64,000 bases of DNA. Source: Thermococcus stetteri. Lineage in GTDB: Archaea > Methanobacteriota_B > Thermococci > Thermococcales > Thermococcaceae. Every line of letters starts with the position of its first letter. Positions within the stretch are counted from its first letter, which is position 1. Where the stretch lies: contig NZ_JAGGKB010000002.1 of the NCBI RefSeq assembly GCF_017873335.1, positions 186,001 through 250,000 on the forward strand, written 5' to 3'. The translations under genes and the position numbers were made by a program. Below, piece by piece: positions 34,154-35,743 of this stretch. The notes under the pieces were generated by a model. That model had not been told where the DNA came from. It did no database searches and saw nothing but the letters and a program-made list of their open reading frames with translations.

Positions 34154-34165
34154 TAATTTTAAATG
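34154..34165 (+). promoter_or_regulatory. TATA box of the C/D box sRNA
   Basis: TAATTTTAAATG lies about 25 bases upstream of the predicted sRNA 5' end, the normal archaeal distance. Confidence 0.45.
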
Positions 34166-34184
34166 GGGCTTTCCTACTGTTCTC

Positions 34185-34242
34185 GCCCGATGACTGGAAA
34201 GAGAGTGAGCTGATCTGTGATGATCGACTTCTCGCTGAGGGC
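34185..34242 (+). ncRNA. C/D box guide sRNA (2'-O-methylation guide)
   Basis: A 58-base element with all archaeal C/D features in order: terminal stem GCCC (34185-34188) with GGGC (34239-34242); C box GATGA (34189-34193, first base variant); D' box CTGA (34210-34213); C' box GTGATGA (34217-34223), perfect; D box CTGA (34235-34238). The guides are about 16 bases before D' and 11 before D. It would direct the fibrillarin/Nop5/L7Ae complex to 2'-O-methylate RNA; targets were not identified. It stands alone between the transporter and gdhA promoters. Confidence 0.8.
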
Positions 34243-34418
34243 ATCTCCCCTTTCCTTATGGGCTCTGATGAACGTAAAAGTCCTTTAGTGTATACAAATT
34301 TCTCGATGCACATCCCTCCTTTTGACGAAATCTCCGAGAATCGTCCTTTGTTCTTTTGGAAATTTCAGTATCTAACTTTTTGTTCAAAACAGACTGTTTT
34401 CCAGCCCGTTTATCGAAA

Positions 34419-34430
34419 GGTTTATATATG
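34419..34430 (+). promoter_or_regulatory. Strong promoter of gdhA
   Basis: GGTTTATATATG with the preceding CGAAA (a B-recognition-like element) is a near-consensus archaeal promoter 50 bases before the gdhA start. It fits with the high expression known for this enzyme in Thermococcales. Confidence 0.8.
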
Positions 34431-34477
34431 CAAACGCCTAACCAAACCTCGCAGATTACCGAAATGAGGTGGTACGA

Positions 34478-35743
34478 ATGGTCGAGATTGACCCCTTTGA
34501 GATGGCCATACAGCAGCTTGAGAGGGCTGCCCAGTTCATGGACATAAGCGAAGAGGCCCTCGAGTGGCTCAAGAAGCCTATGAGGATTGTTGAGGTTAGC
34601 GTTCCCGTCGAGATGGACGACGGTTCTGTCAAGGTTTTCACCGGTTTCCGCGTTCAGCACAACTGGGCCCGCGGTCCGACCAAGGGTGGCATAAGGTGGC
34701 ACCCGGCCGAGACCCTCAGCACCGTTAAGGCCCTCGCCACCTGGATGACCTGGAAGGTTGCCGTCGTTGACCTCCCCTACGGTGGAGGTAAGGGTGGCAT
34801 CATCGTTGACCCGAAGAAGCTCTCTGAGAGGGAGCAGGAGAGGCTCGCTAGGAGCTACATAAGGGCCGTCTACGACGTCATTGGTCCATGGACCGACATC
34901 CCGGCCCCTGACGTTTACACCAACCCGAAGATCATGGCTTGGATGATGGACGAGTACGAGACAATCATGAGGAGGAAGGGCCCGGCCTTCGGTGTCATTA
35001 CCGGAAAGCCGCCGGGAGTCGGCGGTATCGTCGCAAGGATGGACGCCACCGCTCGCGGTGCCGCCTTCACGATCAGGGAAGCCGCTAAGGCCCTCGGCTG
35101 GGACGAGCTCAAGGGCAAGACCATAGCCATACAGGGCTACGGTAACGCCGGCTACTACCTCCACAAGATAATGAGCGAGGAGTTCGGCATGAAGGTCGTC
35201 GCGGTGAGCGACAGCAAGGGCGGCATCTACAACCCGGACGGGCTCCCGCCGGCTGATGAGGTTCTCAAGTGGAAGAAGGAGCACGGCTCAGTCAAGGACA
35301 TGCCCGGAACCCAGGCCATCACCAACGAGGAGCTCCTCGAGCTTGAGGTCGACATCCTCGCCCCGGCTGCCATAGAGGAGGTCATCACCGAGAAGAACGC
35401 CGACAACATCAAGGCCAAGATCGTCGCTGAAGTGGCCAACGGTCCGGTTACCCCGGAGGCCGACGAGATACTCTACGAAAAGGGCATCCTCCAGATCCCG
35501 GACTTCCTGTGCAACGCCGGTGGCGTCACCGTCAGCTACTTCGAGTGGGTTCAGAACATAAACGGCTTCTACTGGACCGTCGAGGAGACCCGGAAGAGGC
35601 TCGACGACAAGATGACCAAGGCCTTCTGGGATGTCTTCAACACCCACAAGGAGAAGAACATCCACATGAGGGACGCTGCCTACGTCGTCGCCGTCAGCAG
35701 GGTCTACGAGGCAATGAAGCACCGCGGATGGGTGAAGAAGTGA
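34478..35743 (+). CDS. gdhA: Glutamate dehydrogenase
   Basis: A 421-residue NAD(P)-dependent dehydrogenase linking glutamate and 2-oxoglutarate plus ammonia. The catalytic lysine is in GGGKGGI (after LPYG), and the dinucleotide-binding fold starts at [11 protein letters not shown]. Length and sequence are those of the hyperthermophilic hexameric enzyme. ATG 34478 is used; GTG 34469 belongs to the ribosome binding site GAGGTGGT. A T-rich stretch follows the stop. Confidence 0.96.

Follow-up and report, generated by a model that had tools for sequence, protein, structure and literature searches.

The 58 bases at positions 34185-34242 on the forward strand of the 64-kb stretch of Thermococcus stetteri DNA that we analysed (the window) read GCCC-GATGACTGGAAAGAGAGTGAG-CTGA-TCT-GTGATGA-TCGACTTCTCG-CTGA-GGGC. 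The sequence and an orthologue alignment place a D' box CUGA at 34210-34213 and a D box CUGA at 34235-34238, and the C' box GUGAUGA at 34217-34223 keeps its UGAUGA in 89 of 90 orthologues; CUGA for D and D' and RUGAUGA for C' are the boxes expected of an archaeal C/D box sRNA. This four-box layout occurs once on the two strands of the window and in none of 100 first-order simulated windows. The covariance model of Rfam family RF01308 (sR58) matches 34186-34240 on the same strand over its entire length (model positions 1-55 of 55) with 73.9 bits (E 2.3e-15) against a score cut-off of 55 bits. Boxes and guides are those of the family, and the sequence differences from it are small: for example, the C box has C in place of U (AUGACUG), and position 11 of the D guide has U in place of C. 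Free RNA folding gave no signal (z 0.07), as expected for C/D sRNAs. Elsewhere in the window, 18493-18536 matches the Rfam model of the eL15 ribosomal protein leader of Euryarchaeota with 38.7 bits.

Exactly one copy of sR58 was found in 91 of 94 Thermococcaceae genomes (73 of the 74 of good quality), and none in 14 of 14 control genomes; across the phylum (115 genomes), 24 gave no match, among them every non-Thermococcaceae genome. We conclude that 34185-34242 is a genuine C/D box sRNA gene, the local Thermococcaceae copy of the sR58 family. A preliminary description of this DNA had proposed such an sRNA, which the Rfam match, the distribution and a published transcript of the T. kodakarensis orthologue (see below) bear out. 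It had also suggested a comparison with Pyrococcus sR families; the full-length match is to the Pyrococcus/Thermococcus family sR58. It had named a missing transcript and unconserved boxes as counter-evidence; a transcript is known from T. kodakarensis and the boxes are kept. To its impression that the gene looked unannotated we add that the family is already catalogued as RF01308; sR58 is a known RNA, and with a transcript documented in a relative the gene as such is ordinary.

The conserved downstream neighbour is gdhA (glutamate dehydrogenase; ORF at 34469-35743, forward strand), found past sR58 in the same orientation at 40 of the 42 loci examined, at a distance of 228-399 nt in the 38 loci measured. 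This arrangement would suit a cis-acting element, either a portion of the gdhA leader or a regulator of gdhA. We consider this very improbable, because gdhA has a TATA box of its own at about 34420-34427, sR58 lies beside different neighbour genes in two loci of other, divergent genera (L160 and L161), and the T. kodakarensis orthologue is a separate 62-nt circle; gdhA is probably not a functional part of the sRNA. Between the two genes lies an imperfect inverted repeat at 34270-34283, GAACGTAAAAGTCC (GAACGTAAACGTTC in two relatives), present some 30 nt past the D box at 8 of the 90 loci, which is a possible operator. At L160 (genome G093), a second C/D sRNA, sR45, was found at 1581-1640 on the opposite strand, upstream of sR58.

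A TATA-like TTTTAAA at 34157-34163 on the forward strand, preceded by A-rich BRE-like bases, is probably the sRNA's own promoter, judging from the sequence. Its centre lies 26 nt before 34186, where homology to the T. kodakarensis transcription start site 1257078 would place the start, in line with the TATA element at the right distance noted in the preliminary description; many Thermococcus-type relatives also have TATA-like elements some 28-33 nt upstream. Other loci are arranged differently. In five genomes (loci L153-L157; G033, G019, G021, G051 and G056), sR58 begins 8-9 nt past a co-oriented tRNA-Thr(TGT) gene, a separation so short that the sRNA is probably cut from a tRNA-sRNA cotranscript, and at L158 and L159 a gap of 39 nt, containing a TATA-like element, separates sR58 from the same tRNA gene. 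In eight loci of genus g3, taken as Pyrococcus (L004, L006, L009, L011, L015, L022, L023 and L026), sR58 and the end of a gene for an antiporter-like membrane protein share bases, the stop codon TGA of that gene being the UGA of the sR58 GAUGA; an upstream scan of these loci found no TATA for sR58, which suggests that it may be released there from the mRNA of the antiporter-like gene.

The T. kodakarensis orthologue (G024:1257024-1257078, minus strand; an Rfam match, with G024 taken as KOD1) coincides with ncRNA02, alias TKOcandSno66, a 62-nt circular RNA at 1257020-1257081 with a start site at 1257078 (PMC9014305). The first wild-type data set contained 139 reads across its junction and the matching RNA ligase knockout 0 (PMC9014305), and the T. 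kodakarensis orthologue is thus expressed and circular. The two loci share their position upstream of gdhA, their length and their boxes, although they belong to different species; the name sR58 is used in that paper for a different T. kodakarensis locus (1947796-1947856). Transferred through the Rfam alignment, the T. kodakarensis circle predicts that sR58 would be expressed in T. stetteri as well, with a mature circular form that probably extends over 62 nt (34183-34244, forward strand), a size within the roughly 50-70 nt expected of an archaeal C/D box sRNA.

The terminal stem is formed by GCCC (34185-34188) and GGGC (34239-34242) on the forward strand, and its covariation in the 90 orthologues is directly observed. 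It has 4 bp, three of which are always paired, with compensatory changes; in counts uncorrected for relatedness, pair 1 is C-G in all 90, pair 2 C-G in 89 and U-A in 1, pair 3 C-G in 74, U-A in 11, A-U in 3 and G-C in 2, and pair 4 G-C in 70, A-U in 5, G-U in 7 and otherwise composed in 8. The Rfam drawing of RF01308, in contrast, shows a 2-bp terminal stem in another register. All four boxes and the terminal stem of the preliminary description are present, but the 5' C box is not canonical; as CCGAUGA it leaves no kink-turn bulge. A perfect stem arises only where the base preceding GAUGA pairs with the base following the D box, and CCGAUGA read as the C box with a 3-nt bulge before it fails to pair. 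Mean stem length in sR58 is 5.3 bp with no spacer versus 0.08 bp with three intervening bases. Across five genomes, 36 further C/D sRNAs whose boxes are canonical reach their greatest stem length at a spacing of three bases (2.1 versus 0.3-0.7 bp); in 24 of the 36, these bases are GAU.

Covariation of the stem is seen only with GAUGA immediately next to it, which favours a C box three bases further downstream, as AUGACUG at 34190-34196 (forward strand), AUGAUUG in most relatives and in the family consensus, rather than RUGAUGA. This register, which the preliminary description did not contain, restores the kink-turn bulge of the other C/D sRNAs in these genomes, here GAU at 34189-34191 (forward strand), and accounts for the nearly invariant UUG after GAUGA (U in 84, U in 89 and G in 89 of 90 orthologues). 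With it, the C-D' spacer is 13 nt instead of 16, close to the 12 nt that is usual. A conserved UUGGAA beside the C box has no complement in 16S or 23S rRNA, and the shifted box accounts for its first part. We infer a kink-turn at the terminal stem, whose bulge and tandem G.A pairs require the variant C box AUGA(C/U)UG. The last two positions of this box are UG instead of GA in almost the whole family, and the usual G-C pair beside the U.U is therefore missing. Like other C/D box sRNAs of the same genomes, sR58 has dual guides, a K-loop C'/D' motif and, if the C box is read in the shifted register, a GAU bulge adjoining the terminal stem; unlike them, it combines AUGA(U/C)UG with a C-D' spacer of 13-14 nt, whereas theirs is mostly 12 nt and their C box is RUGAUGA, a form set by the search pattern.

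We then considered the guides. The D guide UCGACUUCUCG (34224-34234, forward strand) is complementary to 16S rRNA, counted from the box, at positions 2-10, which form 9 Watson-Crick pairs with 16S 1437-1445. The D' guide (34197-34209, forward strand) has a core GAGUGA at 34203-34208 complementary to the UCACUC of 16S 1357-1362, its positions 2-7 making only 6 bp, which is short for a guide at 80-90°C. Both UCACUC and GGAGAAGUCG occur once in 16S; 23S was rejected as a target, as a search of it found none of UCACUC, GGAGAAGUCG and GAAGUCG. The complements given in the preliminary description, which it proposed to seek in rRNA and tRNA, fared unequally: the D complement CGAGAAGUCGA is found in 16S and correct save at both ends, where 16S has GGAGAAGUCGU, and the 12-base D' complement CUCACUCUCUUU matches neither the rRNA nor the tRNAs tested beyond the 6 bp of UCACUC in 16S. 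The longer D' target was dropped, since the best D' duplexes do not surpass those of shuffles and only the conserved 6-base core is informative.

By the N+5 rule, the fifth position of the D guide faces 16S A1440 (E. coli A1492) and that of the D' guide C1360 (E. coli C1409), which lie next to each other on opposite strands of helix 44, in the decoding site. The E. coli numbers follow from published equivalences, in which P. abyssi C1381, A1461 and m3U1467 correspond to E. coli C1407, A1492 and U1498 (PMC7005279, PMC13324472). The strongest support for these predicted targets comes from the guides themselves, as the positions that are invariant among orthologues are those inside the 16S duplexes: all 90 agree at D positions 2 and 4-10 and at D' positions 2-7, D position 3 has U in 83 and C in the other 7, and variation falls on position 1, D' position 8 and D position 11, the edges of the predicted duplexes. 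The seven guides with C at position 3 would form a C.A mismatch with the invariant 16S A1438. Both 16S sites are invariant in the 28 relatives in which 16S was found, and so show no changes that could compensate for those in the guides. Shuffled D cores match rRNA exactly by chance in 3.2% of cases, and by best-duplex score 2 of 40 shuffled D guides equal the real one in 16S. Among 60 permutations of the D' core only one lands near the helix 44 site, and it is accounted for by the real core; judged by its best duplexes, the D' guide does not outperform shuffled guides in 16S, 23S or tRNA.

The D' core also fits the UCACUC in the anticodon arm of tRNA-Asp(GUC), a match tested on 35 distinct tRNA genes of the 45 in the genome. 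sR58 might thus methylate another RNA, tRNA-Asp at C38 through D' and/or tRNA variable loops through D (GGAGGUCG of tRNA-Met), where GGAGGUCGG pairs with D positions 3-11 by including G-U pairs and would suit the C that Pyrococcus has at position 3. This seems quite unlikely to us, as D position 6 is U in 90 of 90 orthologues though C would pair better with the G, only 16S offers the 9-base Thermococcus match in Watson-Crick pairs, and 36 of 40 shuffled D guides do equally well on tRNA.

We favour, with somewhat better than even confidence, sR58 as a guide for helix 44. Transcribed from its own TATA promoter, it would bind L7Ae, Nop5 and fibrillarin (the fibrillarin gene is present in the genome), and the RNA ligase Rnl would probably close it into a circle. 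Its D guide would pair with 16S 1437-1445 and its D' guide with 1357-1362, one on each strand of helix 44 at the decoding site, and A1440 and C1360 would be 2'-O-methylated, both sites being predictions from the guide sequences. Methylation of A1492 would be a surprise, because this nucleotide uses its 2'-OH in decoding, to read the codon-anticodon helix.

The modifications listed for the P. abyssi 30S subunit from cryo-EM at 3.2 Å and LC-MS comprise only Am373 and Cm1376 as ribose methylations, with no Am at A1492 and no Cm at C1409 (PMC7005279). This counts against the favoured reading, as do the short D' duplex, the seven C.A mismatches and the alternative match in tRNA-Asp. The list, the short D' duplex and the coverage of facing strands of the decoding region by the two guides would all suit an sR58 that acts mainly as a folding chaperone of pre-rRNA, pairing with both strands of helix 44 with little or no methylation. 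We regard such a role as unlikely, since both duplexes have a Watson-Crick pair at the N+5 nucleotide, a requirement of methylation guidance, and many ribose methyls are invisible at 3.2 Å; two entries are far below the number of guides. Our literature search, with older Pyrococcus sRNA papers outside its reach, found no published target statement for sR58. Guides for helix 44 have been predicted elsewhere, for A1408 in S. acidocaldarius and N. equitans and for G1494 in M. maripaludis (PMC4644070); sR58 differs in that it is predicted to aim at A1492 and C1409, one RNA serving both strands.

As a gene, sR58 is a matter of routine annotation. Beyond the preliminary description, the coincidence of its invariant guide parts with helix 44 complements turns guide conservation into a concrete prediction for the decoding site of hyperthermophiles, and the variant C box is a naturally occurring test of the requirements of L7Ae and the sRNP at the terminal kink-turn. 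It is tempting to speculate, though we do so tentatively, that an sRNA with the C box AUGAUUG guides 2'-O-methylation on both strands of the decoding site, A1492 included, in which case Thermococcaceae would decode with a methylated A1492. Either this or a chaperone role would be notable given the part of the A1492 2'-OH in decoding.
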